Assembly (NCBI GenBank): GCA_945861535.1
Contig: CAMAUZ010000024.1
Coordinates: forward strand, 1-64,000
DNA: 64,000 nucleotides
Reading direction: 5' to 3'
Origin: Akkermansia muciniphila
GTDB lineage: Bacteria > Verrucomicrobiota > Verrucomicrobiia > Limisphaerales > BJHT01
The notes below the pieces were generated by a model. The model was not told the DNA's origin. It saw only the letters and a list, made by a program, of their open reading frames with translations, and did no database searches. A program made the position numbers and the translations under genes. This document shows positions 34,956-59,208 of this stretch, piece after piece (position 1 is the first letter of the stretch; every line of letters starts with the position of its first letter).

Positions 34956-37900
34956 TCAACGTGATATTTCCTGACGGGGCGTGGCGTCCCACACCTTCAC
35001 CGTTCCGTCGTGGCTGGTCGATGCCAGCCGTTTCCCATCCGCGCTAAACGCCACGCTATTGACCGCGGCGGTGTGCCCTTGCAACGTGAGCGTCTCCTGA
35101 CCGTTCGTGGCGTCCCACACCTTCACCGTCTGATCCCAGCTTGCCGACGCCAGCCGTTTCCCATCCGCGCTAAACGCCACGCTCCTGACGAGATGGGTGT
35201 GCCCTTTCAACGTGAGCGTCTCCTGACCGCTCGTGGTGTCCCACACCTTCAGCGTCCGGTCCCAGCTCGCCGAAACCAGCCGTTTTCCATCCGCGCTAAA
35301 CGCCACGCCAAGGACCTGGTTGAGGTGCCCATTCAACGTAAGCGTCGCCTGACCGCTCGTGGTGTCCCACACCTTCGCCGTCTTGTCCGCGCTGGCCGAG
35401 GCCAGCCGTTTCCCGTCCGCGCTAAACGCCACGCTATAGACCGCGCCGGTGTGCCCATTCAACGTGAGCGTCGCCTGACCGCTCGTGGCGTCCCACACCT
35501 TCACCGTCCCATCCTCGCTTGCCGACGCCAGCCGTTTCCCATCCACGCTAAACGCCACGCTAAAGACCGGTCCGGTATGCCCATTCAACATGAGTGTCTC
35601 CTGACCGCTCGTGGCGTCCCACACCTTCACCGTCCGATCCCAACTTGCCGACGCCAGCCGTTTCCCGTCCGCGCTAAAGGCCACGCTCATGACCTCGCGG
35701 GTGTGCCCTTTCAACGTGAGCGTCTCCTTGCCGCTCGTGGCGTCGCACACCTTCACCGTCCCATCCTGCCTGGCCGACGCCAGCCATTTCCCGTCGCCGC
35801 TAAACGCCACGCCATTGCCCCCGCTAGCGTGCCCTTTCAAGGTAAGCGTCTCCTGACTGCTGGTAGCGTCCCACACCTTCACGGTCCTATCCCAGCTTGC
35901 CGACGCCAGTCGTTTCCCATCCGCGCTAAACGCCACGCTCCTGCACGCATCGCTGTGCCCTTTTAACGTGAGCGTCTCTTGCCCGCTCGTGGCGTCCCAC
36001 ACCTTTACCGTCCCATCCTCGTTGGCCGACGCCAGCTGTTTCCCATCCGCGCTAAACGCCACGCCCCAGACCCCGCGCCCGCGGGTGTGCCCTTTCAGCG
36101 TGAGCATCTCCTGACCATTCGTGGCGTCCCACACCTTCACCGTCCCATCGGCGCTGGCCGACGCCAGCCGTTTCCCATCCGCACTAAACGCCACGCTCCT
36201 GACCCAGTGGGCGTGCCCTTTCAACGTGAGCGTCGCCTGCCCGCTCGTGGTGTCCCACACCTTCACCGTCTGATCGTCGCTGGCCGAGGCCAGCCATTTC
36301 CCATCGGCGCTAAACGCCACGCTATAGACCGGCCCGGTGTGCCCTTTCAACGTGAGCGTCGCCTGACCGCTCGTGGCGTCCCACACCTTCACCGTCTGAT
36401 CGTCGCTGGCCGAGGCCAGCCGTTTCCCATCGGCGCTAAACGCCACGCTCCTGACCACGTCCGTGTGCATTTTCCATGTGAGCATCGCCTGACCGCTCGT
36501 GGCGTCCCACACCTTCACCGTCTGATCCGCGCCTGCCGACGCCAGCCGTTTCCCATCTGTGCTAAACGCCACGCTCGTGACCTCGCGGGTGTGCCCTTTC
36601 AACGTGAACGTCGCCCGACCGGTCGCGGCGTCCCACACCTTCACCGTCTGATCCGTGCTTGCCGACGCCAGCCGTTTCCCATCCGCGCTAAACGCCACGC
36701 TCGTGACCCCGCTGGGGTGCCCTTTCAACGTGAGTAAATCAAGGTGACAGAGCCGTTGTAAGTAATACCACTCGAAGCCGCGCAAGTCGGGCCGGTTCGC
36801 TTGCGGGCGGTGCAGGTCGAGCAGCTCAACCACCCGGCTCACGTGCGCTTCGTCCCAAGCCCGTTTCGCCAGGTTCATGTGCGCGATATAGAGCTGGCGT
36901 CCGGCACGGTCCGCTTCGGCATCGGCCCGGTCGCGCTCGGCCACCGCGGTGGTCCGCTGCTGCTTCGCTTCGCCCAGCGCCTGTTGAGTCTGTGTCTTCG
37001 CTTCCACGGCTTGTTCACGCGCGGCCTTCTCCTTGAAGAAGAGCCAGGTCGAGACGCTCAGGCCGATGACCAGCGACGCGGCCACCGCCGCGCCCGCCGC
37101 GAAGGCCAGCCGGTGTCGGCGCACGAGTTTCTGGAGCAGGTAGGCCGCGCTGGGCGGACAGGCCAGCACCGCCTCGTGGCCGAGGTAGCGCTTGATGTCC
37201 TGCGCGAAGGCGCTCGCGCTCTCATAGCGGCGCGTGCGGTCTTTCTCCAGCGCCTTCATCACAATCCAATCCAGGTCGCCGCGCAGGAGGGTGGTCAGGT
37301 GCGCCGCCTCGGTCGCACGCTGTTTGGCGATGGCAGTCCGGTCGGCCGAGGTCAGGGTTGTCAGGCGCGCGGAGGGCTTCGGTGGTTCGACCTCGCGGAG
37401 CATCCGGCGCATCGCCTCCAAGCCAGCCTCGACCAATGCCTTCGGGTCGAAAGGGAGCCGGCCCGTGAGCAATTCGTAAAGCACCACGCCGAGGGAGTAG
37501 ATGTCCGCCCGGGTGTCCACATCCACGCCGCTCGCCTCCGCTTGTTCAGGACTTGCGTAGGCGGGAGTGCCGATGAACTGATGCAGTTCGGTGAACTGCG
37601 TGCTGTCGTTGAGCCGTCCCTCGGTGGCCTTGGCGATGCCGAAGTCAATGACCTTGGGCACGGGGACGCCGTCGTGCAAGGTGACGAGGATGTTGGAGGG
37701 CTTGATGTCGCGGTGGATGATGCCCTTCTGGTGCGCGTGCTGGATGGCGGAACAGACGGCGGTGAAGAGGTCGAGGCGGTCCTTCGTGGAGAGATTGGCC
37801 TGGTCGCAGTAGTCGGTGATGCGGATGCCGTGGACCAGTTCCATGACGAAGAAGGGCCGGCCGGCGTTGGTCGCGCCGGCGTCGAGGACCTTGGCGATGT

Positions 37901-38348
37901 TCGGGTGGTCCATCATCGCCAGCGCCTGCCGCTCGGCCTCGAAGCGGGCGATGACGGACTTGGTGTCCATGCCCAGCTTGATGACCTTCAGGGCGACCTG
38001 GCGGCGGATGGGCTTCTCCTGCTCGGCCACATACACGGTGCCACAGCCGCCCTCGCCAATTTGCTCGCGGAGTTTGTAGGGGCCGACGAGGTCGCCGGGT
38101 TTCTCGGTGGGGGTCATGCTCTCTGTGCCGGAGCGCACCAGGGCGCGGGTGGTCTCGGCGTCGGACTCCGGTCCGGCAGGGTCGAACAGCGCTTCCGCGC
38201 TGGACTGCACGGCCAGGAGCGCCTCGACGCGGATGCGCAGCGCGGCGTCGCCGAGGCAGGCATGGGCAAGATAGGCGGCGCGTTCGGCGGGCGGGAGCCC
38301 GAGGGCGGCATGGAAGAGTTCCGATTCGCTGGGGGGGGCTGGTTTCAT
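34956..38348 (-). CDS. Transmembrane Ser/Thr kinase with 14 WD40 repeats
   Basis: A 1130-residue protein. Residues about 91-370 are a Hanks-type kinase: glycine loop IGEGGCGTVYVA, VALKVIK with the ATP Lys, IIHRDIKPSN, VIDFGIAKA with normal DFG, and GTPAYASPEQA. After a membrane helix near residues 425-450 there is a coiled segment and then, from about 537, fourteen consecutive WD40 units of 42 residues, each like SVAFSADGKRLASAS and TVKVWDATSGQ, enough for two seven-bladed propellers. The kinase would be cytoplasmic and the propellers outside. An N-terminal 80-residue helical part precedes the kinase. Repeats are nearly identical, see separate entry. It reads away from the tandem kinase array. 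Confidence 0.93.
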   Translation of the reverse strand: MKPAPPSESELFHAALGLPPAERAAYLAHACLGDAALRIRVEALLAVQSSAEALFDPAGPESDAETTRALVRSGTESMTPTEKPGDLVGPYKLREQIGEGGCGTVYVAEQEKPIRRQVALKVIKLGMDTKSVIARFEAERQALAMMDHPNIAKVLDAGATNAGRPFFVMELVHGIRITDYCDQANLSTKDRLDLFTAVCSAIQHAHQKGIIHRDIKPSNILVTLHDGVPVPKVIDFGIAKATEGRLNDSTQFTELHQFIGTPAYASPEQAEASGVDVDTRADIYSLGVVLYELLTGRLPFDPKALVEAGLEAMRRMLREVEPPKPSARLTTLTSADRTAIAKQRATEAAHLTTLLRGDLDWIVMKALEKDRTRRYESASAFAQDIKRYLGHEAVLACPPSAAYLLQKLVRRHRLAFAAGAAVAASLVIGLSVSTWLFFKEKAAREQAVEAKTQTQQALGEAKQQRTTAVAERDRADAEADRAGRQLYIAHMNLAKRAWDEAHVSRVVELLDLHRPQANRPDLRGFEWYYLQRLCHLDLLTLKGHPSGVTSVAFSADGKRLASASTDQTVKVWDAATGRATFTLKGHTREVTSVAFSTDGKRLASAGADQTVKVWDATSGQAMLTWKMHTDVVRSVAFSADGKRLASASDDQTVKVWDATSGQATLTLKGHTGPVYSVAFSADGKWLASASDDQTVKVWDTTSGQATLTLKGHAHWVRSVAFSADGKRLASASADGTVKVWDATNGQEMLTLKGHTRGRGVWGVAFSADGKQLASANEDGTVKVWDATSGQETLTLKGHSDACRSVAFSADGKRLASASWDRTVKVWDATSSQETLTLKGHASGGNGVAFSGDGKWLASARQDGTVKVCDATSGKETLTLKGHTREVMSVAFSADGKRLASASWDRTVKVWDATSGQETLMLNGHTGPVFSVAFSVDGKRLASASEDGTVKVWDATSGQATLTLNGHTGAVYSVAFSADGKRLASASADKTAKVWDTTSGQATLTLNGHLNQVLGVAFSADGKRLVSASWDRTLKVWDTTSGQETLTLKGHTHLVRSVAFSADGKRLASASWDQTVKVWDATNGQETLTLQGHTAAVNSVAFSADGKRLASTSHDGTVKVWDATPRQEISR
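34968..36737 (-). repeat. Fourteen 126-nt tandem repeats encoding WD40 blades
   Basis: The unit GTCTGATC..GACGCCAGCCGTTTCCC returns every 126 nt (plus strand view), fourteen times. Conservation is high at the DNA level, including wobble positions in AAACGCCACGCT, which implies recent expansion or gene conversion. Confidence 0.88.
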
Positions 38349-38437
38349 GCGGTGGCCGGGTGTCTTACCCTGTCATGCGAAATTTCTCGATGATAAAGTT
38401 CCTTCATTTTCCAGCGCTTTGTCGCGCGGGGATAATT

Positions 38438-39166
38438 TCACCGTCGGCCGTCATACCAGATGGGGCAGGCGTCGCGGCGGTTCAAGGACCGGCCCAGCGT
38501 GAGGACAGCCTTCACCATGACGCGCAGGTGTTCCCACGGCGTGTAGAGGTGCGCCTTGCGGCCGGACGTGACGAGCGGGTGGCGCGTGAGGATGCGCAGG
38601 GGCCGGAGTTTGCGCTGCCGGGCGAGCCGATTCAGCCGCTGGCTCATGTCAATGTCCTCAGCGGCGTAGAGCGCCTGGTCGAAGCCGGCGACGGCTCGAA
38701 ACGCCCCCGCCTCCACGAAGCTGAACGACCCGGCGGCCCAGTGGGCTCAGCGAGTGAGGGTCGTCAAGCCAAGCATGAAGAACCCCGTCCACCACGGTGC
38801 GTGGTCGAGCCGCAGGGTGCAGCCACCTGCGAGGTGCTGGCCGGCGCGGATGACCTCGGCGACGTCGGCGAGCAGGTCGCGGTTCACGTGCGAGTCCGCG
38901 TCCACGAAGATGAGCCAGTCGCCGCTGGCCGCCGCTGCGCCGGAGTTGCGGGCGCGGGCGATTTGGTTCACTGGCTCGAAGACGACCGTTGCGCCCGCCG
39001 CGCGCGCGAGTTCCCCGGTGCGGTCCGTCGAGTTGTTGTCGCAGACGATGATTTCGCTGTCCCAGCCGATCGACGTGAACGCCTCGCGCGCGGCATGCAC
39101 CGCCTGCAACGTCGCGCCGATGAGCTTCTCCTCGTTGAAGGCGGGCAGGACGATGGAGATGCGCAT
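38438..39166 (-). pseudogene. Glycosyltransferase family 2, interrupted by one in-frame TGA
   Basis: Two halves in the same frame. Residues 1-139 start MRISIVLPAFNEEKLIGATL and include DNNSTDRTGELA, RARNSGAAAASGDW and the DxD-type FVDADSHVN, so they are a GT-A nucleotide-sugar domain. After TGA (38747-38749) the frame goes on with AHWAAGSFSFVEAGAFRAVA, AEDIDMSQRLNRLARQRKL and a C-terminal region typical of the same family, for 243 codons in total. The stop probably replaces TGG. The 5' half alone could still be made but would lack the acceptor part. It lies between two kinase genes, on the same strand. Confidence 0.8.
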
Positions 39167-39221
39167 GGCGGAGGATAGCGGAAACAGTCGCTCCTGCCAG
39201 CCGGGAACTTCCGTCAGCGCG

Positions 39222-39368
39222 ATGTTTCAGAAGGGCGTCGTGTTGCCCCGCGTTGCGAGGGCCGGCGGCGCGGAGTTGACCGTCGAGGACACGAGCATCA
39301 GCCCGTTCCCCGGCGTCACGCTGGTTGGGGTGAAGCTCCAGGTGCCGGGCGGCGAGCCGGACCTGGTT
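39222..39368 (+). pseudogene. Possible N-terminal fragment of an AsmA-like protein
   Basis: About 49 codons read MFQKGVVLPRVARAGGAEL, TVEDTSISPFPGVTLVGVK and LQVPGGEPDLV. The pattern LP-x-V followed by an L-x-V-x-D-x-S-x-SPF-x-x-V-x-L stretch is that of the first strands of AsmA-type membrane proteins of this phylum, as I recall them. The membrane helix before it and everything after it are missing. Low confidence. Confidence 0.3.
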
Positions 39369-39963: not shown

Positions 39964-42714
39964 CTACCGGGACGACATCCCAACCAACACACAACGAAAC
40001 CCGTTGTTTTCGTTGCGAGTGTCGGCCGGGGTGCCTTGGCGATACGAGGACAACAGATAGCCAAAACCGGCGATGCGCCACGAACCACCGCGCGACACGC
40101 GGACGCCGCTCACACCATCGGAAAAATCCTCGCACCACTGCCACACATTCCCGCCCATGTCATAGATTCCAAAGCGATTCGCGGCAAAACTCCCCACGGG
40201 CGACGTGTATTCGTAATCATCCACGTTCAAGGTTTGGCCAAGGTTCGCCGCACCGCGTGGCGGCGGCCATTGCACACCCCACGGATACATGCCCTTGATT
40301 TTTACATGCTTGTCGTTCGGAGATCCCTCACGCGCTTCGTTCAAGCCCGCCGCCACGCTCCACTCCCAATCCTTGGGCAGCCGATAACTCTGCGTCGCGG
40401 TCAATTTGCCGTCCTTCCGTTCCTTCTCCGTCAGCCATTTCGTGAACGCCTGCGCATCGTCCCAGCTCACACTCACCACCGGATGCGTCGGTTCTTGCTT
40501 GAAAGGTGGTTTGTCCACCGAACGGCTCGTCGCAGCCGCAAACGCCGCGTAGTCCTGCACCCGCGTGTCCCAGATGCAGAATTGCACCTCCGTCCCCGGC
40601 ACGGGCACGAAGACTTGGCCGAGCGTATTGGTCCAGCGGCTCGTCGTCGTCGGGGGCGCGCTCGCCGGGTTGGGCACTCCGGCAGCGACGGGCGGGGCGG
40701 CGGGTTTCCCCACGCTGGGAGAGGGCACGGCTGCTGCCGGCGCACCGCCAAAACCCGTCAACACCAGTCGAAAACCGCCGCTGCCAAATTTTCGGTCGGG
40801 GGGAAAGCGAACCCAGCGGTGGGAGGATAAGAGGACCTCCGGGATGGCATCATGCCACGATCCGCCACGGAGCACTCGATGCGTCTTGTTGTCGTCGTAC
40901 CAGTCTTCGCACCACTGCCACACATTCCCGGCCATGTCATAGAGGCCGAACGAATTGGTCATAAAATTCCCCACCGGTGATGTGAACGCATGCCCGTCTT
41001 GGTAACCGTCAATACAGGTAGCACCGCCGGAGTTGTAGTTAGCCATTGGCCATCCTGTCTTCGAGGTCTGGTCCGCGAAGTTGCCAGCACCGGGTGGTGG
41101 AGGCCATTGCCTGCCCCACGGATACACATTGGCGATCTTGCCGCTCTTGGCGACAGGGGTGCCGTCGCGCGGCTCATTCAACCCCACCGCCACGCTCCAC
41201 TCCCAATCCATTGGCAATCGATAACTTTGCCCCGCGCTGAGCTTTCCTTCCTGGCGTTCTTTCTCCGTCAGCCACTTGGCAAACGCCTGCGCATCGTCCC
41301 AGTTCACATGCACCACAGGATGCGTTGGCCCCTGCTCAAAGCTCGGCTTTTGCGCAGCGCGGCCCGTCGCGCTCGCAAACGCCGCGTAATCTTGCACCCG
41401 CGTCTCCCACACGCAGAACAACACCTCCGTCCCCGGCACGGGCACGAACACCTGGCCGAGCGAATTGGTCCAGCGGCTCGCCGTCGTCGTGGGCGCGCTT
41501 GTGGGCTTGGCCACGACGGCAGCGACGGACGGTACAGCGGGCTTGGCGACACCGGACGCTGGCGCAGCGGCCGTTGGCGGCGGGTCCTCCGCAGGTTTCC
41601 GCGGTCGGAACACCACTGCCAGGCCGATGAGCAGAAGCACCGCCACGCCGCCGATGATGCCGTAGAGTTTTCCCTTCCCGGAACCTGCCGGCGCAAACGG
41701 AGCCGACGGAGCGGTGAATTCGAGCTCGGTCGGCGCGCTGGAATCCTGCGTGGGCCGTGGCCTGCTATCGGATTGCGAACTCTTCGCGCTCCCCGCGGAC
41801 GCATCCGACGGAGCGGCTCCGCTGACGCTGGCGTGACTGGCGCGTCGGGCCGGAGCCTTCGTGATTCCCATCCGCTCGGCGACCTCACCCGCGGTTTGCG
41901 GTCGTACGGCCGCGTCCTTGTTGAGACAGGCCATGATGGTGGCGGCGACCGCTTCCGGAATCTCGTTCTTGAGGTCAAGTTCCTTCAGTCGCTCCGCCAG
42001 CGTGGGTGGATTGCCCTCGCGAATCTGATGGAGCACGTCCCCTTTGTAGAACGGCGGCTTGCTGGTGAGCAGCTCGAACAGGGTTGCGCCCAGCGAGTAG
42101 ATGTCGTCCGTCGCCTTGGAAGGTTTGCCCGCCAGTTGCTGCGGGCTCATGTAGGACGGCGTGCCGCTGACGCCCATGTCCTTGGTCACCTTGAGCATGG
42201 ATTCGCTGAGCGTGGCGGCCAGCCCGAAGTCCGCCAGTTTCAAACGCCCCTTGGCGTCCAGCAGCATGTTGGCGGGCTTGAGGTCGCGGTGAACGATCTT
42301 CTCCTCGTGCGCGTAGTCGAGGGCATCACAGAGCTGGGCCACGATCGGCACCAGAGTGGGCCAAGGGAAAAGCCGGTTCGGCTGGCCGGCCTTGAGGGCG
42401 CTCAGGGACTGGCCCTCAATGTACTCCATGGTGATGAAGGGCGCCTCACCGGGGAGCTGATAAAAGTCGTGAATCCGGATGATGTTGCGATGCGACAGTT
42501 GCCGGCATTTGCGCGTCTCCCGCCGCATGTCGTCCATCGCTTCGTGGTCGTGGCTCAACTGGGGCGAGAGGAACTTCACCGCCACGTTTTCATGGAGCGT
42601 TGCGTCCTCGGCCAGACAGACGATCCCCATGCCGCCTTCGCCGAGCTTCTTGACGATCTTGAAGCGCCCGCCGCCGAACTCGACACCCGGTTGATAGTGG
42701 TCGCCACCAATCAT
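39964..42714 (-). CDS. Transmembrane Ser/Thr kinase with two formylglycine-enzyme-like domains
   Basis: A 916-residue protein. Kinase about 18-285: LGEGGMGIVCLAED, VAVKFLSP, IVHRDLKPAN, LADFGLAAT, GTPSYMSPQQ. An S/P/A-rich linker leads to one membrane helix (LYGIIGGVAVLLLIGLAVVF). Outside are two FGE-sulfatase (SUMF1-like) domains, about 425-655 and 690-912, each with TNxLGQVFVPVPGTEV, PVVxVxWDDAQAFxKWLTEK, SYRLPxDWEWSVA, the LYDMAGNVWQWCEDW or IYDMGGNVWQWCEDF block and RGGSW. The Cys pair of true FGE was not confirmed, so these may only bind ligands. The two domains are close duplicates. A divergent pair with the FHA-cyclase gene that starts 156 bases away. Confidence 0.92.
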   Translation of the reverse strand: MIGGDHYQPGVEFGGGRFKIVKKLGEGGMGIVCLAEDATLHENVAVKFLSPQLSHDHEAMDDMRRETRKCRQLSHRNIIRIHDFYQLPGEAPFITMEYIEGQSLSALKAGQPNRLFPWPTLVPIVAQLCDALDYAHEEKIVHRDLKPANMLLDAKGRLKLADFGLAATLSESMLKVTKDMGVSGTPSYMSPQQLAGKPSKATDDIYSLGATLFELLTSKPPFYKGDVLHQIREGNPPTLAERLKELDLKNEIPEAVAATIMACLNKDAAVRPQTAGEVAERMGITKAPARRASHASVSGAAPSDASAGSAKSSQSDSRPRPTQDSSAPTELEFTAPSAPFAPAGSGKGKLYGIIGGVAVLLLIGLAVVFRPRKPAEDPPPTAAAPASGVAKPAVPSVAAVVAKPTSAPTTTASRWTNSLGQVFVPVPGTEVLFCVWETRVQDYAAFASATGRAAQKPSFEQGPTHPVVHVNWDDAQAFAKWLTEKERQEGKLSAGQSYRLPMDWEWSVAVGLNEPRDGTPVAKSGKIANVYPWGRQWPPPPGAGNFADQTSKTGWPMANYNSGGATCIDGYQDGHAFTSPVGNFMTNSFGLYDMAGNVWQWCEDWYDDNKTHRVLRGGSWHDAIPEVLLSSHRWVRFPPDRKFGSGGFRLVLTGFGGAPAAAVPSPSVGKPAAPPVAAGVPNPASAPPTTTSRWTNTLGQVFVPVPGTEVQFCIWDTRVQDYAAFAAATSRSVDKPPFKQEPTHPVVSVSWDDAQAFTKWLTEKERKDGKLTATQSYRLPKDWEWSVAAGLNEAREGSPNDKHVKIKGMYPWGVQWPPPRGAANLGQTLNVDDYEYTSPVGSFAANRFGIYDMGGNVWQWCEDFSDGVSGVRVSRGGSWRIAGFGYLLSSYRQGTPADTRNENNGFRCVLVGMSSR

Positions 42715-42870
42715 GGCGGGGAGTTTCTGGCCGGTGGGCTGGGGATTACGAGCGAAATATCCCGCGTCTGTTTGCGGGTTGGTTTTCTTGCGACGGCGGG
42801 ATTTTCGGGCAGTTGAAGATCGACAAACGGTCCCCGTTTACCAGAATGACAACACAACCACTACGACCTC

Positions 42871-44451: not shown

Positions 44452-44609
44452 CCGGTTTGGCGGGGGCGCTTGGTGGAGCAGACTTGGCCGAGGAACGCGC
44501 ACGGATTCTCGACAGGGCAAGACCCGCCCACGGGCACTGGCAGGTAGTTTGAGCTGAACGGGAACCGGCTGGACGGGAACCGAGATTTCGCTAGCCTGCA
44601 GGCAATCGC

Positions 44610-48867: not shown

Positions 48868-48893
48868 GTTTCCGCTAGCTTCCGCAGCATCGC

Positions 48894-51764
48894 ATGACGC
48901 CCGCCTCCCCCTATCGCACCGGCCGTGAGATTGCCCGGGGCGGCATGGGCGCGGTGCTGGATGCGCGGGATCAGAAGCTCGGCCGCAGCGTGGCGATGAA
49001 GGTCATGCTCCGCCGCAATGCCAGCGAGGAGGAGCAGCAGCGCTTTCTCCAAGAAGCCCGCGTGCTGGGGCAGCTCGCGCATCCCAACATCGTGCCCGTC
49101 CACGACGTGGGCATGAATGAGCAGGGCCGCCTCTTCTACACCATGAAGCTGGTGGTGGGCGTCACGCTGCACGACGTCATCGGCAAGCTGAAGGCCGGGG
49201 ACAAGGACACACTCGCCAAGTATCCGCTCAACGCGCTGCTCACCGCCTTCCAGAAAGTCTGCGACGCCGTCGCCTTCGCGCACTCGCGCGGCATCATCCA
49301 TCGCGACCTCAAGCCGCAGAACATCATGGTCGGCGAGTTCGGCGAGGTGCTGGTGATGGACTGGGGGTTGGCGAAGATTCTGCCGGGCAGTCCAGCTGCG
49401 GCCGAAGCGGCCAGAACTGGACCATTGCGAATACAGGCAGGCACTTCCGCTCCCCAAAGCGCTCCACCGTCAGGGAGTACCACAGGCCTGCGGTCGTCGG
49501 TCGGGATCGATCCGACCGAGGCTGCGACGTTGCCCTTGGTCCCCAAGCCGACCGACGACGCCACGCTCGTCTATGCCCCAGCCCCGGCTCCATCGGGCCC
49601 ATCTGGGATTGCCAGCGAAGCCGCGACTTCGGGTAGCAGCTACGCGACGCTGGAAGGCGCGGTGATGGGGACGCCGCACTACATGCCGCCGGAACAGGCG
49701 GACGGTCGGGTCGCCGAGCTTGATGAACGCTCGGATGTGTATTCCTTGGGCGGCGTGCTCCATGCGCTCCTCACTTTGCGACCGCCCGTGGAAGGAAAGG
49801 ATACCAGCGAAGTGTTGAACAAGGTGCTCCATGGCGACATCACCGCGCCCGCGCTGGCGACCCGGGGCAACAAGCTCCCCCACCTGCCCAACGGCCTCGT
49901 GCCCCATGCGTTGTCGGTCGTGTGCATGAAAGCCTTGCAGGTCGCGCGCCGGGATCGTTACCAGACCGTGACTGAGTTTGAGCAGGATATCGCGGCGTAT
50001 CAGGGCGGTTTTGCCACCAGCGCAGAGGACGCGAACCCGCTCGCCCGGTTTCGCCTCTTCATCCTCCGCCACAAAGTTCTCTCCGCGGTGACTTCGCTGA
50101 CCGTGCTGCTGACCATCTTCTTCGTGGGAACGCTCATCAAAAGCGAAGAATTGGCCAAAGCCCACGCGGAGCGAGCAGACCAGAGCGCCAAGCACGCCAT
50201 GGGCGAGTCGCAAAAGGCGAAAGCCGAGGCGGAGAAGGCGATAGCGATGGCGCAGTTCCTGAGCGGCCTCTTCGATGACGCCGATCCCGTGGCCCGCCAT
50301 GGCCGGGCGATGGGCGCAAGTCCCCGCCGGGGGCCGAGCGTGACAGCGCGCGACATGCTGGATCGAGGTGCGGCCACCTTGCGGACTTCGCTCAAGGACG
50401 ATCCCGCGATCCGGGCCGTGCTGCTGGACAAGGTGGGCAACGTTTACATCAGCATGGGCCTTTATTCGCAAGCCGCACCGCTGGTGGACGAAGCGCTGGA
50501 ACTGCGAACGAAACTCTTCGGTCCGGACCATGTGGAGACGGCGGCCAGCTTGCACACCAAGGGCTTGTTGGACGGCTATCAGGGCCAATACGAGTCGGGG
50601 CTCAAACGAATGAACGCCGCCCTGGACATTTATCGCAAAGGCCATGCTCAGGGGCATCCGCTGGTTTCGGATGTCGCCCTCGATCTCGCCGTGCTGGAAG
50701 TGGCCAACAACAACCTCACGAAGGCCAGCCAGCTCTTGCTGACAGCCTTGGAAATCCGCCGGCGGGCCTTTGGTGAGAACAGTCGCGAAGCATTGGCCCC
50801 GTTGATGTTTCTGGCGGTGTTTGAAAACTCCTCCGGGCGGAGAAACCCGGAGCGCATCATGGAAGTGGCCAAGGTCTGGGACGGGGCCGGGCGGACCGAG
50901 GAATTCGGAGCCTTCGTCAATCTCGGGCTGAACGCCGTGGTTACGGCCCAGCTCGACCCGGCCAAAGCGGCTGATCTCTTTCAGGAAGCCGAACGGCGGG
51001 GCACAGCCCTGTTGGGATCGAACCATCTATACCTAAACATTGTTCGCAATGAGCACGCTGCCTTCCTCAGCAAGACCGGACAACTGCCCGAGGCACGGGA
51101 AAAATACCAGGCCGTCATTTCCAGCGTCCAAAGCGCGCTCGGGACCAACTGCGTGTTTCTCATCGCCCCACTGGAAGGCCTGGCCCGGCTCGAATACGGC
51201 GCGAGAAATTACGCCGTCCTGGCGGGTATCTACCGACAGTTGATCAGCCTGATGGATGCGCAGGCGCAGCGTGAGAGCGCCCAAGTGGAGTCGCGGAAGT
51301 ATAACCGTCATCTGGGCCGGTGGATCGACGCGCTCAACTCCCTGAAGCGGCACGGCGAAGCGGAACAGGAAATTCGCCGCATCCTGCTTTCCATCAGAGA
51401 TGGCGGCATCTATTCGGAACTCAAGCCGGCAGCTTTCGTCGATCGCCTCGGTGTGGCCGTGCTCGGCCAGGCGGGGATCAACTTAGCCCCGGCAGACCTT
51501 GCCGCAGACAACTCCTCGGGTCAGCAAGCGCTATCGGCCGCCAAGCTCTGCGCCAAGGCGGCGGCCGCGCTGGCCAAGCGCACGCCTAATCCCACCGAAG
51601 CGGACCGCCTCGTCATCGGCCTGCTCATGGATCAGGCCGTGATGATCCTCAAAAATGCATTGGCAAGGGGTGCGCCCAAACCACCAGATCTGCGAACCGA
51701 TCCCGACTGGTCGGTTCTCAGGTTGCACAAGGACTTCGCCCCGCTGGTGGAGCCGGGCAAGTAG
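48894..51764 (+). CDS. DWG-type Ser/Thr kinase with TPR region
   Basis: A 956-residue protein, second of the array. Kinase: REIARGGMGAVLDARDQKLG, VAMKVMLRR, IIHRDLKPQNIMV, VMDWGLAKIL, a 103-residue insert (with ATLPLVPKPTDDATLVY) and GTPHYMPPEQADG, with Pro where the sister genes have Ser. Then a membrane helix (VLSAVTSLTVLLTIFFVG) and, instead of a propeller, tetratricopeptide repeats from about residue 500 (VLLDKVGNVYISMGLYSQAA, LHTKGLLDGYQGQYESGLKR), with further helical repeats to the end. So the kinase half was duplicated and joined to a different sensor half. Likely inner-membrane receptor kinase. 26 bases after the first array gene and 129 before the third. Confidence 0.92.
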   Translation: MTPASPYRTGREIARGGMGAVLDARDQKLGRSVAMKVMLRRNASEEEQQRFLQEARVLGQLAHPNIVPVHDVGMNEQGRLFYTMKLVVGVTLHDVIGKLKAGDKDTLAKYPLNALLTAFQKVCDAVAFAHSRGIIHRDLKPQNIMVGEFGEVLVMDWGLAKILPGSPAAAEAARTGPLRIQAGTSAPQSAPPSGSTTGLRSSVGIDPTEAATLPLVPKPTDDATLVYAPAPAPSGPSGIASEAATSGSSYATLEGAVMGTPHYMPPEQADGRVAELDERSDVYSLGGVLHALLTLRPPVEGKDTSEVLNKVLHGDITAPALATRGNKLPHLPNGLVPHALSVVCMKALQVARRDRYQTVTEFEQDIAAYQGGFATSAEDANPLARFRLFILRHKVLSAVTSLTVLLTIFFVGTLIKSEELAKAHAERADQSAKHAMGESQKAKAEAEKAIAMAQFLSGLFDDADPVARHGRAMGASPRRGPSVTARDMLDRGAATLRTSLKDDPAIRAVLLDKVGNVYISMGLYSQAAPLVDEALELRTKLFGPDHVETAASLHTKGLLDGYQGQYESGLKRMNAALDIYRKGHAQGHPLVSDVALDLAVLEVANNNLTKASQLLLTALEIRRRAFGENSREALAPLMFLAVFENSSGRRNPERIMEVAKVWDGAGRTEEFGAFVNLGLNAVVTAQLDPAKAADLFQEAERRGTALLGSNHLYLNIVRNEHAAFLSKTGQLPEAREKYQAVISSVQSALGTNCVFLIAPLEGLARLEYGARNYAVLAGIYRQLISLMDAQAQRESAQVESRKYNRHLGRWIDALNSLKRHGEAEQEIRRILLSIRDGGIYSELKPAAFVDRLGVAVLGQAGINLAPADLAADNSSGQQALSAAKLCAKAAAALAKRTPNPTEADRLVIGLLMDQAVMILKNALARGAPKPPDLRTDPDWSVLRLHKDFAPLVEPGK

Positions 51765-51893
51765 CGCATACTGGCCTTTCGCTCGCGCCACCCAGCGCGA
51801 TGACCTAGGAATGGGAAGTGCGGCGTCCAGGCTGCCGCATGGCGGGCGTTAGTGGTATGATTCAGCTTGTGGCTTGGCTAGAGTCTTATACGC

Positions 51894-54800
51894 ATGGCCA
51901 ATCTGGCTTCTTATCTTCGCGGTCGTGAGATCGCCCGCGGCGGCATGGGCGCGGTGCTGGACGCGCGGGACCAGAAGCTGGGGCGCAGCGTGGCCATGAA
52001 GGTCATGCTCCGCCGGCAGGCCAGCGAGGAGGAGGAACAGCGCTTTCTCCAGGAGGCCCGGGTGCTTGGTCAGTTGGCGCATCCCAACATTGTGCCCGTG
52101 CATGACGTGGGCAAGGACGAGCAGGGACGGCTCTTCTACACGATGAAGCTGGTGCAGGGCGTCACCCTTCACGACGTCATCAGCAAGCTGAAGTCCGCGG
52201 ACAAGGACACGCTGGCCAAGTATCCGCTCACCGCGCTACTGACCATCTTCCAGAAGGTGTGCGACGCCGTGGCGTTCGCGCATTCGCGCGGGATCATCCA
52301 CCGGGACTTGAAGCCGCAGAACGTCATGGTCGGCGAATTCGGCGAAGTGCTGGTGATGGACTGGGGCCTCGCGAAGATACTGCCTGGCAGTGCGGCTGCC
52401 GAGGAAGCGGCCCGGACGGGACCATGGCGGATACCGTCCGGCGCTTCTGCTCCCCAGAGTGCGCCACCGCCGGTGAGTTCGGCCGGCGTGCCGCCAGCGG
52501 CCGGGATTGATCCGGCCGAGGCAGCAACGTTGCCCTTGCTTCCCAAGCCGGCCGACGATGCCGCCACTCTCGCCTATTCCCCGATCCCGGCTCCTTGGGA
52601 CGCACTTGGGATCGCCAGCCAAGCTGCCACCCCCGGCAGCAACTTCGTGACGCTGGACGGCGCGGTGATGGGGACGCCGCACTTCATGTCGCCGGAGCAG
52701 GCGGAGGGCAAGAGCGCCGAGCTGGACGCTCGCTCCGACATCTTCTCGCTGGGCGGCATTCTCTACGCGCTGCTCACGCTGCGCCCGCCGGTGGAGGGCA
52801 ATTCGCTGGAAGAGATCTTGTCGAAGGTGCGTAGCGGGACCATCGCGCCGCCCACGGTCTTTAACGCCCCGAGTTCCACCACGCAGGCCAAGGCGGGCAC
52901 GACTGGTGCGGTGACGGAGCCGCGCAAGATTCATCCCCTGCCGCATTGTCCGGACGGGAAGGTGCCGTCGGCGCTCTCGGCTGTGACGATGAAGGCGCTG
53001 ACGCGGGACAAGGCACGCCGGTATCAGACCGTTGCGGAGTTCACGCAGGACATCGTGGCCTATCAGGGCGGGTTTGCGACGAGTGCGGAGAACGCCAACG
53101 CGCTGACGCTGGCACTACTTTTCTTCCGACGGAACAAGGTGCTGGCCTCAGCGGCGGCGCTTGTGTTGCTGGTCATTCTCATCGCGCTGCCACTGGTGAT
53201 TGCCAGCGAGCAGAAGGCCAAGGCGAACGCGACGCTCGCCGGTCAGAATGAGCTGAAGGCAAATCAGAACGCCGCCACCGCGCGGGCAAACGAGCTGAAG
53301 GCCGAGGCCAATGCCAAGCAGGCAAAGGCGGCCGAGCAGGCCGCGCGCGCCGAGAAGGAACTGACGCGTCGCGCCTTCGCCAGGGCGCAGACCGCGCTCG
53401 CCGATGCGGCCCTGCGCGAGCTGGACACCGTGGCGGCGCGCACCGCGCTGAATGCGGTGCCGGAGGATTTGCGCGATACGAGCTGGGAATACTTGCTGGC
53501 CCGCTCGGACACCTCGCTCGCCACCCTGCGCTCATTGAACAGCGCGGTGATTCGCGCCGTCGCGGCGCATCCAAAGCGGGCCGGGGTGTTCGCCATCATC
53601 GGTGGGGATCACGTCATTTCGCTGGTGGAAGCAGCCACGGGGGTGCGGCTGTTGGATTTTAGCAGCGGCCTTGGCCCCACCCCCGGCGAAGGGTATTCAC
53701 TCGCGTTTTCTCCAGATGGCGAGGAACTGGCCGTCGGCCACACTGCGGTCGCAAAGATCGTCTTTCACAGCGCGCGCGACGGTCGCAAGCTCCGCGAATG
53801 GAAGGCACTCGCGCCGGAAGCCCTCGCGTTCAGTCCGGTTGGTGGCCGCTTGCTCGTCAATGCGAGCCAACAGAAAGAGCGAGGAAGATTGGCCATGTGT
53901 GACGCACAAACCGGCGCGGCGAGGTGGAGTTTGGATGAGCCATCCCACTGGACCCACGCCGCCTTCCACCCCTCTGGCCAGTCGGTGGTGGTCGCGTCCG
54001 GCAAATTCAGCGTGGCGTTGCTCGATGCCGATGATGGCCAAAAAATCCGCGCGCTGCCGGACAGCGGACCCTATGTCAATGCGCTCGCCGTGAGTCATGA
54101 TGGCGAATACGCGGCTTACGGGGACGAACAGGGCGGCATCCGGAGTGTGCGTCTGAAGGACGGCCAGCTCATGCTGAACTTCCGCGCGGCGAATTGCGCC
54201 ATCCGCGCGCTGCACTTCACGCCGGACAACCGCCGCCTCGTCACGCTCACGTATCCGAGAAACCACTCCTACCATCACGTCCGCGTGTGGGACGCGCTCA
54301 CCGGCTACCCTTTGCAGGCGCTGTCCGGCGCGGATGCGCTGTCCACCGGCGCCAGCATCCATCCGGTTTCAGGCGAACTCGTCGTGATGGGCAAACAGGC
54401 GGCCAAGTTCTGGAACCTCAAGCAAATCGAACCCGGGTGGAATGTTCCCGCTTCCGTGAACCTGCCGTGGGCGGGGTTCTGGGGCGGAGACGACACGTTG
54501 CTCCACTTCGACCCGCGCGGACTGCCCTGCGTCTCGCAACTCACCTCCAGCGGCGGCGGAAATGTTCTCTGGCGTGCTGGAACCAATTGCCTGTTCCCCA
54601 TCGCCAGCATCAGTGCGGATGGTCGCTTTGCCCTGGGCGGCGGGCTGTCCGCGCAGTCTGACTTTTTCCTGCTGCAACACGACGGCACGTCCGTGCGGGA
54701 GGTCGCGCATTGGAAACCGCCCTCCAACCCGCAGGTGCTGCGCTTGAGCCCGGCCGGTGACCGCGTCTGGACTGAGTCACAGATGTTCGATGCCACCACG

Positions 54801-55907
54801 GGGAAGCCGCTGTCCACCCAGACCGTCAAAGCGCGTGGCAACTGGGTGGACGGCCACTGGATTTCCTCGAACCGCCTGGTCACCCTCGCGCATGAAAAGG
54901 AGTCGTCCCTCGTGGCCGTTGTTGACGCCAGCACTGGACAGACCCTCAGCTCTGCCACCAACGCCGCGCGCATCCTCGCGCTCGCGGTCGCCCCCGGCGG
55001 GCGGCTCATCGGTGAGGGCGGGCAGGACAAGCTCGTCCGCCTGCGCGACCCGAAGACGCTCGCCGTGCGCCACGAGTTCCGCGCGCACGATGGTGGCGTC
55101 ACCGCGCTGGCCTTCCACCCACGCGAACCCATCATCGCCACGGCATCGGAGGATCTCACGATGCGGGTGTGGAACTACGAAGCCGGCGCGCTGCTGGAGG
55201 AGCTTCGCGGGCCCCAAGTGATTCCGCTCAGCCTGGCGTGGAGTCCCGGTGGCAAGCGCCTGGCGAGCGCCGGAATTGACCGGCTCGTGCACGTCTGGGA
55301 GCCACGCTCGCTCAACACCCGCGCACCGTCCGCACCCGCTGGCACCCGCAACGAATGGGAGTCTCTCCTCGCGCAGATCAAGTCCGACGACGTCGCCACG
55401 AAGGGTCAAGGCTGGGTCTTCGACAACGGCAGCTTGCGCAGTCCCGACCGCAAGTATGCGACCGTGCCGCTGCCCGGCAACTTTGCCCACACCAGTTATC
55501 ACCTCGAGCTCAAAGTGCGCCGTCTCACTCCTGCGGATTCGCTCACTGTTTTTCTCCCGGTTGCGGACCGGCAGACCGGTTTCATGCTCGATGGCTATCC
55601 CCAGGCCGGACATGTGTCAGGCCTCCACTACGTGGATGGCAAAGGCGACACACAACAGGCCAATGCCGTGCGGGGCTTGCAGGTGAAGGATTCGGAGTCT
55701 CACCAGCTTGATCTCATCGTGCGCGTCGGTCCCGTGACCTCAAGCATCGAAGTGCAGTTCGACGAACGCCCGCTCTACCGGTGGACTGGATTGCCAACGG
55801 CACTGAGCATGAACGGCCGCTTCATCGGACTGGCTTCCCACCAGCTCGGTCTCAGCGCGCACAAGCCTGACTGGGTTATCGAAGCCGCGCGCGTGAAACG
55901 GTTTTGA
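51894..55907 (+). CDS. DWG-type Ser/Thr kinase with propeller and lectin-like C-terminus
   Basis: A 1337-residue protein, third of the array and the intact counterpart of the frameshifted first one. Kinase with GREIARGGMGAVLDARDQKL, VAMKVMLRRQ, IIHRDLKPQNVMV, VMDWGLAKIL, a 104-residue insert holding ATLPLLPKPADDAATLAY, and GTPHFMSPEQAEG. A membrane helix (VLLVILIALPLVIA) is followed by a long Ala/Glu/Lys coiled coil, a propeller (SVAFSPxG-like blades, for instance AFHPREPIIATASEDLTMRV and SPGGKRLASAGIDRLVHVWE) and the same jelly-roll-like end as the first gene (YHLELKVRRLTPADSL, SSIEVQFDERPLYRWTG). The extracellular part would sense a ligand. Confidence 0.92.
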   Translation: MANLASYLRGREIARGGMGAVLDARDQKLGRSVAMKVMLRRQASEEEEQRFLQEARVLGQLAHPNIVPVHDVGKDEQGRLFYTMKLVQGVTLHDVISKLKSADKDTLAKYPLTALLTIFQKVCDAVAFAHSRGIIHRDLKPQNVMVGEFGEVLVMDWGLAKILPGSAAAEEAARTGPWRIPSGASAPQSAPPPVSSAGVPPAAGIDPAEAATLPLLPKPADDAATLAYSPIPAPWDALGIASQAATPGSNFVTLDGAVMGTPHFMSPEQAEGKSAELDARSDIFSLGGILYALLTLRPPVEGNSLEEILSKVRSGTIAPPTVFNAPSSTTQAKAGTTGAVTEPRKIHPLPHCPDGKVPSALSAVTMKALTRDKARRYQTVAEFTQDIVAYQGGFATSAENANALTLALLFFRRNKVLASAAALVLLVILIALPLVIASEQKAKANATLAGQNELKANQNAATARANELKAEANAKQAKAAEQAARAEKELTRRAFARAQTALADAALRELDTVAARTALNAVPEDLRDTSWEYLLARSDTSLATLRSLNSAVIRAVAAHPKRAGVFAIIGGDHVISLVEAATGVRLLDFSSGLGPTPGEGYSLAFSPDGEELAVGHTAVAKIVFHSARDGRKLREWKALAPEALAFSPVGGRLLVNASQQKERGRLAMCDAQTGAARWSLDEPSHWTHAAFHPSGQSVVVASGKFSVALLDADDGQKIRALPDSGPYVNALAVSHDGEYAAYGDEQGGIRSVRLKDGQLMLNFRAANCAIRALHFTPDNRRLVTLTYPRNHSYHHVRVWDALTGYPLQALSGADALSTGASIHPVSGELVVMGKQAAKFWNLKQIEPGWNVPASVNLPWAGFWGGDDTLLHFDPRGLPCVSQLTSSGGGNVLWRAGTNCLFPIASISADGRFALGGGLSAQSDFFLLQHDGTSVREVAHWKPPSNPQVLRLSPAGDRVWTESQMFDATTGKPLSTQTVKARGNWVDGHWISSNRLVTLAHEKESSLVAVVDASTGQTLSSATNAARILALAVAPGGRLIGEGGQDKLVRLRDPKTLAVRHEFRAHDGGVTALAFHPREPIIATASEDLTMRVWNYEAGALLEELRGPQVIPLSLAWSPGGKRLASAGIDRLVHVWEPRSLNTRAPSAPAGTRNEWESLLAQIKSDDVATKGQGWVFDNGSLRSPDRKYATVPLPGNFAHTSYHLELKVRRLTPADSLTVFLPVADRQTGFMLDGYPQAGHVSGLHYVDGKGDTQQANAVRGLQVKDSESHQLDLIVRVGPVTSSIEVQFDERPLYRWTGLPTALSMNGRFIGLASHQLGLSAHKPDWVIEAARVKRF

Positions 55908-55916
55908 TCAGCGCGC

Positions 55917-55991
55917 CGCCAGGGTGGTGTATGAAGTCGAGGTGAAGCGGCTGGACGGGAAGTGAGATTTCGCTAATCTCCGGCCCATCGC
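55917..55991 (+). repeat. Duplicated gene-junction segment of the kinase array
   Basis: The 75 bases (GTGGTGTATGAAGTCGAGGT, AAGCGGCTGGACGGGAAGTG, then ATTTCGCTAATCTCC and ATCGCATGA) match the 3' end of the first array gene plus the spacer before the second (48825-48896), and the leader before the first (44560-44610). A recombination footprint. Confidence 0.8.
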
Positions 55992-56087
55992 ATGAACCCC
56001 GGCTCTGCTTACACCCCCGGCCGCGAGCTCGCCCGCGGCGGCATGCGGGCCATCCTCTCGGCCACGGACCAATCCTTCGACCGCTAG
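55992..56087 (+). pseudogene. Stub of a fourth array kinase
   Basis: Thirty-one codons, MNPGSAYTPGRELARGGMRA then ILSATDQSFDR and a TAG. The start equals that of the three array kinases (S-P-Y-R-T-G-R-E-I-A-R-G-G-M-G-A), with the glycine loop altered to GGMRA. Nothing kinase-like follows. Confidence 0.85.
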
Positions 56088-56524
56088 CGCCAAATTCCCC
56101 GACCGAACTCGGCCATGTTCCCGAGCGGTTCCCTCCAGCGCCGCCAACCCAATCATGTGTCTCCACCGGGCACCCGCCGCGCGTACTCCGGGCGTCAGTC
56201 GCTGGCAGCTGTCGCCGTGCCCTTCCCCTTCCTCCCGCTGCGACCGGGACCGTCGCAAGCCGCCTGGGTTGCAGCTTCGCCGCCAATGTACATCGTGTTG
56301 CTTTGGTCTCCTCCCCCGTTTTTCCGTGGGAATCGAAACGGCCAGGGCGGGGAGCGACCTGTCGGATTCGGGTCCCGAGGGTTCGTCGTGATGATTTCGA
56401 AATCACCCGGCACCGGCGAACGACGCTGTGAGGGTTGGCTTCCACGCTGCCGGATTCTCGCTTGACCGTCGGCGCTGCCGGCCGCCACTTTCCGCCATCC
56501 CGTTAGCCTTTCTCCGCGTATCAA
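56088..56524. other. Gene-free spacer after the kinase stub
   Basis: About 440 bases. The frames here are not protein-like and no kinase homology continues from the stub. No repeat copy recognised. Confidence 0.5.
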
Positions 56525-58453
56525 ATGGATCCATTCAACGAAAAAAAATTCCGACTTTCCGCCGCGGTGGAGTTTGCGGACCTCCCCGATGGCGTGCGGG
56601 TGCTGAAACAGCGGGTGCGCGGAGAGTATCTGGTCCTGACTCCGGAGCAGCAGCGGGTGCTGGCGTTGTTCGACGGACGGCAAACCGTGCATGAGGTGCT
56701 GCAAGGACTGCTCCAGGGGGAAAGTCATCCAAAGCTCCGCGCCTTTTACGACGTGGTGCTCGCCGCCCAGGCGAAGGGCTTTCTGTATGAAGGCGACTCG
56801 GAACCGCCCAGCGCTGCGGCCACGGGCCGTCGCTGGAATGTCCGTTGCACCCCGACCAGCGCGGTGGCGCTGGCCTTGGGCCTCATCGGTGCCGGAGCTT
56901 TCGCGGTGGGGGTTTCGGCGGTGCCGATGCTTCCCGGCAATCCGATCGGTTGGTGCGTCGCGCTGGCGGCGATCTCGCTGGGACTGAGTCTCGCGTCGCT
57001 GTTGGCGGGTGCGGTACTGAGCGGTCTGGGGCGGGAGATCTACCGCCCGGAGCTGCGCATGGACATGGTGCTGCCGTTTTTCTCCGTGGATACGCGGGAC
57101 GCCTTGATGGGCGGTCGCACGGTGGAGGCGCTGACCGCGGTGCAGATGCTCGCCGCGCCGTTCGCGGTCGCGCTGGTCGGGTGGGCGCTGGATTCCAATG
57201 CGATCCTGCTCGCCGGCTGGATCACGGCGCTGGTGTTGAGTTCCCCCTTCGGCAACTCGCCGGCGCACGCGCTGCTGCACGCGCTCTTTCGCAAGCAACA
57301 TGAGCTGCCGCGTTGTGCGGATACGTTTCTGAACCAGAAGCTTCTCGTGCAACTGCTCAACTTTCGGGAGTCGCTGACCGAGGAGCGCTACTTCCTCATC
57401 CACTCGACGTGGGCGGTGTTGTGGCTCGGCGCGGTGTTCCGGTTTGCCTCCGAGCAGATGGCCCGGCAGGCAAACTTCATCTTCGAGCCGGGGGCGCCAA
57501 CGGTGATCTTCCTGTTGGCCTTGGTGCTGGCGGCACCGCTCGCCTATGGACTCTGGCTCATCGGCAAGGCCGGCCACCGGCTGTTCGCGCCCAAATTCTC
57601 CCCCGCCGAGACGAAGCTGAAACCGGGCGGCGACGGGGTGCGGCGGCCCGGTCCCGACGCGACGGTCAAATTCCTGTCCGACACGCTCTTGTTCTCGCAG
57701 TTGGCCGCGGCGGAAATCCGCGCCGTGGCCGAGGCGATGGACTTCTTAACCGTGAAACCCGGCACGCTCATCATCCGCGAGCGCGACCGGGGCGACCTGA
57801 TGTTTGTCATCCATGACGGCCGGGTGGAGGTGCGGAAGGAGGACGAAGCCGGGGTGAGTCGTCCGGTGGCGCAGCTTGCCCGCGGTGATGTTTTCGGCGA
57901 GATCGCGCTGCTGCGGCAGGTGCCACGCAACAGCTCCGTCGTCGCGCTGGAAGGAACGGAACTCTTTTCGCTCAAGAAGGCGGATTTCGACCGGTTGCTG
58001 CTCTCCACGCTGGGCGCGCAGAAAATTCAGGAGGTCGTGCAGGTGTGCGCCTTCCTGCGACGCCATGCCATCTTCTCGGACTGGCCGCCCTATGCACTCA
58101 TGAAGGTTGCCGGGCAGTTCACTTTTCAAGACTCGGCCGCCGGGGCGACCGTGATCGCCGAACGGCAGCCGAACGAGTTTTTTTACTTGGTGTATGAGGG
58201 TGAATTCGAAGTGCGCAAGGCCGGGGCGCGGGTGGCGACCCTCGGTCCGGGCGACTTCTTCGGCGAAGTCAGCTTGCTCCAAGGAACCGTTGCTTCGGCG
58301 GATGTGGTCGCCGTGCGGAACAGTCGCTGCCTAAAACTGGGCCGGGACAGTTTCCTCCAACTGGTCAGCCGCGACTTCACCACCGGCATGGCCATTGAGC
58401 GCGCCTCGGAGCGACGCGTGTCGGCACTGAAGAAAAAGGGGGCTGCCAGATGA
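56525..58453 (+). CDS. PqqD-like, multi-spanning membrane protein with two cNMP-binding domains
   Basis: A 642-residue protein. Residues about 10-85 resemble PqqD or peptide-binding winged domains (YLVLTPEQQRVLALFDGRQT then VHEVLQGLL). Residues about 110-345 hold several membrane helices in the arrangement of site-2-protease-like proteins; the place of HExxH reads HALLH (H248, H252), so proteolysis is doubtful. Two cyclic-nucleotide-binding domains follow (about 380-495 and 505-620). In the first, the phosphate cassette GDVFGEIALLRQVPRNSSV keeps Glu459 and Arg468; in the second (GDFFGEVSLLQGTVASADV) the Arg is Ala590, so only the first is likely to bind cAMP. It overlaps the next gene by 4 nt, thus translational coupling. 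Confidence 0.85.
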   Translation: MDPFNEKKFRLSAAVEFADLPDGVRVLKQRVRGEYLVLTPEQQRVLALFDGRQTVHEVLQGLLQGESHPKLRAFYDVVLAAQAKGFLYEGDSEPPSAAATGRRWNVRCTPTSAVALALGLIGAGAFAVGVSAVPMLPGNPIGWCVALAAISLGLSLASLLAGAVLSGLGREIYRPELRMDMVLPFFSVDTRDALMGGRTVEALTAVQMLAAPFAVALVGWALDSNAILLAGWITALVLSSPFGNSPAHALLHALFRKQHELPRCADTFLNQKLLVQLLNFRESLTEERYFLIHSTWAVLWLGAVFRFASEQMARQANFIFEPGAPTVIFLLALVLAAPLAYGLWLIGKAGHRLFAPKFSPAETKLKPGGDGVRRPGPDATVKFLSDTLLFSQLAAAEIRAVAEAMDFLTVKPGTLIIRERDRGDLMFVIHDGRVEVRKEDEAGVSRPVAQLARGDVFGEIALLRQVPRNSSVVALEGTELFSLKKADFDRLLLSTLGAQKIQEVVQVCAFLRRHAIFSDWPPYALMKVAGQFTFQDSAAGATVIAERQPNEFFYLVYEGEFEVRKAGARVATLGPGDFFGEVSLLQGTVASADVVAVRNSRCLKLGRDSFLQLVSRDFTTGMAIERASERRVSALKKKGAAR

Positions 58454-59208
58454 GCGCGTTCTTCAGAGTTCTGCCGGTGGTGGCGGTGGTCGGTGTCGTC
58501 GTGATGAACTCGGGATCACTCAAGAAAACCCTCAACATCGTCGGCAAGGTGCAGGTCGCCGCGACCTCGAGCACGGAGCTCTCGGGCATTGCCAGCGCCC
58601 TGGCGAATCATTTTGCGGAGACGCAGGATTTGCCGGTGGAAAGTCTCGACACCTTCCTCCGGGAAAACCTGCGCGCGAAGAACAGCCGGTCAGCCCGCGA
58701 CCAGTCCAAGGATCCCTGGGGCACCGGCTACCGCCTCAACGTGGATGCCACCCGCAACGGGTTTACCATCCTTTCCGCAGGCCCGGACAAGAACTGGACG
58801 ACCGAGGATGACCTGAATTATTTCTACGATCTCACCGGTGTCGCGGGCAAAAGCGCCATCAGCAGCACGCTCGCCGCCCGCGCCCGCACGCAGGCCGTCA
58901 AGGAGGGTGCGAGCAGCCCCGCCGCGGCAAGTGCGGTAGCCTTCCAACCCACCTCCGTCCCGTCGGCAGCTCCGCGGACACAATCCGCCGAGGAGACGAA
59001 GCGAAAGGTGATCGAGTTCCAGATGCGCCGGGCGGCAGAAGGTTCACCACAAGCGCAGTATGACATGGGCATGCGCTATCTCGAAGGCGACGGCGTCGAA
59101 CGCGACCCCGTCCAGGGCCGCGAGTTGCTGGAGAAGTCCGCGCAGGGCGGGCACGGCGACGCGGTGAAAAAGCTGCAGATGTTTCCGGTGAAGCCCAAGC
59201 CCGAGTGA
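58450..59208 (+). CDS. GspG-like membrane protein with Sel1 repeat
   Basis: A 252-residue protein whose ATG overlaps the previous stop (ATGA). One N-terminal hydrophobic helix (FFRVLPVVAVVGVVVMNSG), then a helical part and the GspG-type signature KDPWGTGYRLNVD followed by FTILSAGPDKNWTTEDD, which in major pseudopilins binds calcium. There is no prepilin cleavage motif, so it is a derived, non-pilin form. After an Ala/Ser linker comes a Sel1-type repeat pair (AEGSPQAQYDMGMRYLEGDG, then KSAQGGHGDAVKKL). Likely in the inner membrane with its domains outside or in the periplasm, as a partner of the cNMP-binding protein. Confidence 0.82.
   Translation: MSAFFRVLPVVAVVGVVVMNSGSLKKTLNIVGKVQVAATSSTELSGIASALANHFAETQDLPVESLDTFLRENLRAKNSRSARDQSKDPWGTGYRLNVDATRNGFTILSAGPDKNWTTEDDLNYFYDLTGVAGKSAISSTLAARARTQAVKEGASSPAAASAVAFQPTSVPSAAPRTQSAEETKRKVIEFQMRRAAEGSPQAQYDMGMRYLEGDGVERDPVQGRELLEKSAQGGHGDAVKKLQMFPVKPKPE

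Follow-up and report, generated by a model that had tools for sequence, protein, structure and literature searches.

The signaling genes at positions 34956-59208 of the DNA analyzed here (the window, a stretch of 64,000 nucleotides from a 7.94-Mb genome whose named relatives are Verrucomicrobiota) probably form three units: a pair consisting of a receptor Ser/Thr kinase (K2) and an FHA-GAF-class III cyclase (AC), an array of DWG-type kinases (K3 to K5), and an independent operon encoding a cNMP-binding membrane protein (CN) and its partner GS. To our knowledge, little is understood about how bacterial receptor Ser/Thr kinases pass on their signals in those phyla that have the largest numbers of them. 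The recurring kinase/FHA-GAF-cyclase pair offers a concrete candidate target, i.e., cAMP synthesis, in a testable two-gene system. The initial annotation had tentatively joined all of these genes into one phospho-to-cAMP relay; the kinase-to-cyclase half of that proposal held up, while neither the cNMP half nor the DWG array could be tied to it.

Receptor Ser/Thr kinases in the window

As had been annotated, the region carries two DFG kinases (K1 and K2), three DWG kinases (K3 to K5), and a kinase stub. K1 (34956-38348, minus strand) has a DFG motif, one membrane span, and 14 WD40 repeats, and K2 (39964-42714, minus strand) has a DFG motif, SPQQ replacing the APE motif, and two FGE-sulfatase domains. 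Each kinase of the window has a single membrane span after the kinase domain, followed by a C-terminal region, which is WD40 in K1, K3, and K5, TPR in K4, and the double FGE-sulfatase in K2. The features of a receptor Ser/Thr kinase (catalytic Lys, HRD, DFG-type Asp, and one span) were all found in K1, K2, K4, and K5, with K4 and K5 carrying DWG in place of DFG and keeping the Asp. Receptor Ser/Thr kinases with WD40, TPR, or FGE-sulfatase regions are common in the PVC group (PMC11032199). Between K1 and K2 lies a broken family-2 glycosyltransferase-like gene with an internal in-frame stop (38438-39166, minus strand), and DUF7133/GDSL-lipase proteins flank the signaling region on both sides (30282-33539 and 61405-63966).

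K3 (44610-48867, WD40), K4 (48894-51764, TPR), and K5 (51894-55907, WD40) all lie on the plus strand. Their kinase regions are 69-79% identical to one another and 34-39% identical to those of K1 and K2; K3 to K5 are therefore one tandem family, and the island counts as three independent kinases, not five. K5 is followed, on the same strand, by the C-terminus remnant of a further K3-like gene (55913-55962) and by a 31-codon stub of a fourth DWG-type kinase (MNPGSAYTPGRELARGGMRAILSATDQSFDR*; 55992-56084), which is the residue expected of tandem duplication and decay. The reading frame of K3 is broken between the ATG at 44610 and the catalytic lysine, with a shift near 44680 relative to K4. As sequenced, the open reading frame is called from 44641, the glycine loop falls out of the open frame, and the start (44610-44700) is not in frame with the remainder of the kinase, reflecting either gene decay or a sequencing error. 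DWG kinases also form arrays elsewhere, as a separate tandem family.

In the DWG kinases, long Thr/Pro/Ala-rich inserts interrupt the activation segments (45100-45650, 49390-49690, and 52420-52710). Acidic-x-x-Thr-Leu motifs were enriched in such inserts (11 compared to 1.2 in shuffles for eight kinases, mostly in close paralogues), and we considered them as docking sites for the FHA domain. This idea was not adopted, since the enrichment rests on three close paralogues, distant DWG kinases carry at most one such motif, and the motif in the linker of AC is not kept in the sister AC.

Across the whole genome, there are approximately 21 Ser/Thr kinase loci, 12 PF00211 cyclases plus one degenerate copy, and approximately 8 CNB proteins. 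Having 5 of the ~21 kinases within 21 kb is far above their density, the number becoming three after merging the tandem family. For cyclase-CNB pairs within 15 kb, 0.39 per genome are expected by chance, and the proximity of AC and CN is therefore uninformative by itself.

AC is an FHA-GAF-class III cyclase with a complete catalytic set

AC (42871-44451, plus strand) is divergent to K2, with 157 bp between the two genes, and contains FHA (PF00498), GAF (PF13185), and Guanylate_cyc (PF00211, 80 bits) domains. The catalytic residues, which the initial annotation had called intact, are complete (D347, K387, D391, T461, N468, and R472). These include the two metal Asp (D347 and D391) and the transition-state Asn and Arg (N468 and R472) of class III adenylyl cyclases, as well as K387 and T461 at the base-selecting positions, where Lys and Thr/Asp are typical of enzymes that use ATP. 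The guanylyl cyclase Cya2 has a Glu at the site of K387. K387 fits ATP as the substrate, and cAMP would be the product predicted from these residues. In a structure model of AC, the best fold matches were to the expected cyclase fold only, and the FHA domain was confidently predicted, in blocks of pLDDT 80-89, while the overall pTM of 0.38 was too weak for the domain arrangement.

Phosphothreonine-binding FHA domains are defined by GR, SxxH, and NG motifs, and genes for FHA proteins cluster with Ser/Thr kinase genes, e.g., in Mycobacterium tuberculosis (PMC1262709). The FHA domain of AC keeps Arg26, His47, and the VNG turn, while an Ala replaces the phosphate-contacting Ser, so that GR, His, and NG are present and the motif set is incomplete. 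Doubt about this domain, already voiced from the missing Ser, was well founded: the Ser is present in 87/89 FHA-GAF-cyclases, and Ala is found only in AC and its sister in genome G110. Given this conservation, the FHA-GAF-cyclase family at large probably reads phosphothreonine, whereas the FHA domain of AC itself lacks a defining feature.

Kinase genes recur beside FHA-GAF-cyclases

We surveyed 89 loci at which a single open frame encodes FHA, GAF, and cyclase (L061 and L081 match at the same positions, as do L067 and L089), with 80 further loci from a scan of named genomes. The controls were 41 class III cyclases lacking FHA and GAF, most of them of the same phylum and some from the window genome. 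With sets that differ somewhat in phylum, a kinase was the next gene for 16/89 FHA-GAF-cyclases compared to 0/41 other class III cyclases (Fisher p 0.0015) and lay within two genes for 21/89, in several phyla, compared to 1/41 controls (Fisher p 0.0013). That single control shares its kinase with an FHA-GAF-cyclase. In the closest-relative group, 12/36 had a kinase (p 0.0003). Kinase neighbors are thus commoner for FHA-GAF-cyclases than for other class III cyclases, and 68/89 FHA-GAF-cyclases have none within two genes.

Since the rows of this survey are not independent, a tree was needed to judge recurrence. It gave 11 changes of kinase adjacency, at least 9 of them forced by well-supported branches. 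Four gene arrangements occur (divergent, convergent, and both co-directional). The pair is divergent in the window, in G110, in G001 (the only other genome of the same genus compared), and in the paralogue within the window genome; convergent in G036, a Pyrinomonadaceae, and a Spartobacteria genome; and co-directional in Myxococcota and in the isolate Lujinxingia vulgaris. It is mainly from this repeated juxtaposition in differing arrangements that we infer a functional link. Using tblastn with the window genes on the loci of relatives, a K2-type kinase was found beside an FHA-GAF-cyclase in several other genomes. Furthermore, both FHA-GAF-(pseudo)cyclases of the window genome share a contig with a kinase, compared to 0/11 of its other cyclases; one of its contigs (C134) carries an FHA-cyclase without a matching GAF stretch and has no kinase. 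The step from kinases to the FHA-cyclase proposed in the initial annotation is accordingly backed by a neighborhood that recurs across phyla relative to controls, although for one kinase, K2, and not for the whole island. Most K2-type kinases do not adjoin an FHA-GAF-cyclase, and SPQQ was rejected as a marker of cyclase-partner kinases, being common to the whole K2-type subfamily.

Between the window and G110, which belongs to another family of the order, AC is 71% and the K2 kinase domain 79% identical, compared to 64% for ArgRS and 50% for CN. The higher identity of the pair suggests that the two genes were transferred, or are maintained, as one unit; an alternative is binning contamination of G110 (7%). 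While the partner kinases keep the kinase domain, the rest changes (FGE-sulfatase, RCC1, bacterial PH, WD40, AAA, or a second kinase). The partner has RCC1 and an N-terminal FHA in G008, a bacterial PH domain in G036, and an AAA ATPase in an acidobacterium, and the partner of the own-genome paralogue, like others, is a WD40 kinase. Such differing C-terminal regions would fit a single relay whose sensors can be exchanged.

The cyclase end of the pair also varies. The own-genome paralogue (L077:9478-11187, contig C4) combines FHA-GAF with a cyclase-derived domain without catalytic residues and is divergent to a WD40 receptor kinase; its counterpart in G001 likewise lacks the catalytic residues. 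Since the cyclase of this second pair is dead, pairing with a kinase can occur without cAMP synthesis. FHA-GAF proteins without any cyclase lie beside K2-type kinases in G041, G110, and G111. In G110, a K2-type kinase, CHASE2, and a class III cyclase share one open frame (L259:948-4010, contig C54); the start of this fusion is cut by the contig end, and Gln apparently replaces the base-selecting Lys. Four FHA-GAF-cyclase relatives (L050, L069, L070, and L073) have degenerate catalytic residues, a 159-codon neighbor each, and no kinase nearby.

CN and GS are kept without K2 and AC in the same genus

CN (56525-58453, plus strand) is a membrane protein with two cNMP-binding domains (CNB, PF00027, E 2.5e-39). 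It overlaps by 4 nt with GS (58450-59208, plus strand), which has one N-terminal membrane span, a T2SSG-like region, and a Sel1 repeat; both genes agree in this with the initial description. The "PqqD" label given to CN fell away, as there was no Pfam match for it, only the predicted N-terminal secondary structure being compatible. All 11 orthologues keep Glu459 and Arg468 of the phosphate-binding cassette in the first CNB, and all 11 lack the cassette Arg in the second. The cassette Glu and Arg of cAMP-binding CNB domains are thus found together in the first domain only, and, judging from these residues, CN may retain the ability to bind a cyclic nucleotide. The CN model (pTM 0.46, too weak for the domain arrangement) gave the expected CNB folds as best matches, and a fold search with its membrane domain gave no match. 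CN was found in 12/116 genomes, with GS adjoining it in 11/12; the twelfth is cut by a contig end.

In G001, CN and GS are 91% and 79% identical to those of the window, and CN is under purifying selection between the two genomes (dN/dS 0.12). An orthologue of AC was not found in G001, where the best match was 30%. In the alignment, window positions 39964-40281 (the end of K2) and 56434-59215 (CN-GS) are collinear in G001 and only 11 bp apart, and the 16.15 kb in between (40282-56433), with most of K2, AC, K3 to K5, and the stub, is missing. The junction lies mid-contig and contains no N. As the tail of K2 is present in G001, the simplest explanation of the difference is that G001 lost the segment, and not that the window lineage gained it by insertion. 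Palindromic intergenic repeats of the window (11584-11719, 16819-16948, and 20864-21179) match the G001 contig that carries CN.

In other relatives, too, CN and this type of cyclase are mostly apart. Within the order, G104, G077, G027, G048, and G085 encode CN but no cyclase of this type, and G008, G065, G036, and G084 encode such a cyclase but no CN. Both CN and a full-length FHA-GAF-cyclase of this type are encoded by the window genome, G110, and G031, on different contigs in the relatives. G077 is the one case of partial linkage: there, a related FHA-GAF-cyclase, itself degenerate, lies at a distance of 15 kb from CN. The co-occurrence of cyclase and cNMP gene that had been suggested as a check was therefore mostly absent in the order, and G001 retained CN-GS after the deletion. 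Such independent occurrence is what the initial annotation had named as refuting its relay, and the proposed step from the cyclase to the cNMP gene was not upheld.

Discussion

In the reading we favor, K2 would most likely sense something outside via its FGE-sulfatase-like region and would control cAMP synthesis by AC through phosphorylation. In the family at large, the FHA domain would dock on phosphothreonine. For AC, without the phosphate-contacting Ser, this is the least certain step, and we assume that AC is either phosphorylated directly or docks in a weaker or changed manner. K3 to K5 and the stub would be a tandem DWG array growing and decaying by duplication and unrelated to AC. CN-GS would be a separate conserved operon, in which binding of a cyclic nucleotide to the first cNMP domain probably gates CN; CN may read the general cAMP pool of the cell and would not be dedicated to AC.

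A single dedicated relay, in which the kinases phosphorylate, AC makes cAMP, and CN reads it, would agree with the gene order of the window, the intact AC residues, the retained Glu459 and Arg468, and the three genomes encoding both proteins. However, the same-genus deletion separates the K2-AC pair from the cNMP-binding operon, CN-GS staying under purifying selection without K2, AC, and K3 to K5. CN also occurs without AC in five genomes and AC without CN in four, the genes lie on separate contigs elsewhere, and their proximity in the window is expected by chance; we regard such a relay as very unlikely. It is also unlikely that K2 and AC are neighbors simply through shared residence in a signaling-rich region, without functional coupling. 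These genomes are rich in kinases and cyclases, K1 and K3 to K5 lie here too, and most family members (68/89) have no kinase close by, yet none of the 41 other cyclases, mostly of the same phylum, adjoins a kinase, the adjacency recurs in several phyla and arrangements, and the pair is more alike between families (71/79%) than ArgRS (64%) or CN (50%).

The AC of this lineage could, in addition, have lost regulation through its FHA domain, leaving a vestigial FHA, the GAF domain as sole input, and the kinase pairing as a relic. The change from Ser to Ala in only AC and its sister, the conserved GAF domain, and the existence of FHA-less GAF-cyclases in G050, G087, and G111 speak for this, whereas Arg26, His47, and the VNG turn are kept, the FHA domain is modeled in blocks of pLDDT 80-89, and the pairing with K2 persists in the sister. 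On balance, we find it rather unlikely and retain control of AC by K2 as the working model. More broadly, and tentatively, receptor kinases with exchangeable sensors might control FHA-GAF-cyclases in a phospho-to-cAMP relay across Verrucomicrobiota, Acidobacteriota, and Myxococcota, of which nothing but the FHA-GAF adaptor or a dead cyclase would remain in some lineages, while one relative has a kinase and a cyclase fused in one protein. A literature text search, with most subscription journals outside its scope, returned no published description of a Ser/Thr kinase/FHA-GAF-cyclase module.

Several parts of the region resemble known systems. The kinases share with the receptor Ser/Thr kinases of the PVC group (PMC11032199) a cytoplasmic kinase, one span, a WD40, TPR, or sulfatase-modifying region outside, and tandem duplication, with no essential difference; K1 and K3 to K5 are ordinary members, K3 to K5 with long activation-segment inserts. 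As in M. tuberculosis-type clusters, an FHA protein expected to read phosphothreonine is encoded beside a Ser/Thr kinase, but here that protein is a class III cyclase with a GAF domain, and the copy in the window is without the FHA Ser. The catalytic domain of AC is approximately 30-36% identical to, and has the same fold as, those of Cya2 (2w01), CyaC (1wc0), and CyaB (3r5g), from which AC differs by its FHA-GAF input and, relative to Cya2, by the Lys in place of Glu at the base-selecting site. Finally, CN resembles the regulatory subunit of PKA in having a pair of CNB folds, the first with the binding Glu and Arg, whereas in CN a multi-span membrane domain is joined to the CNB domains, the second of these has no Arg, and the partner is a GspG/Sel1 protein.
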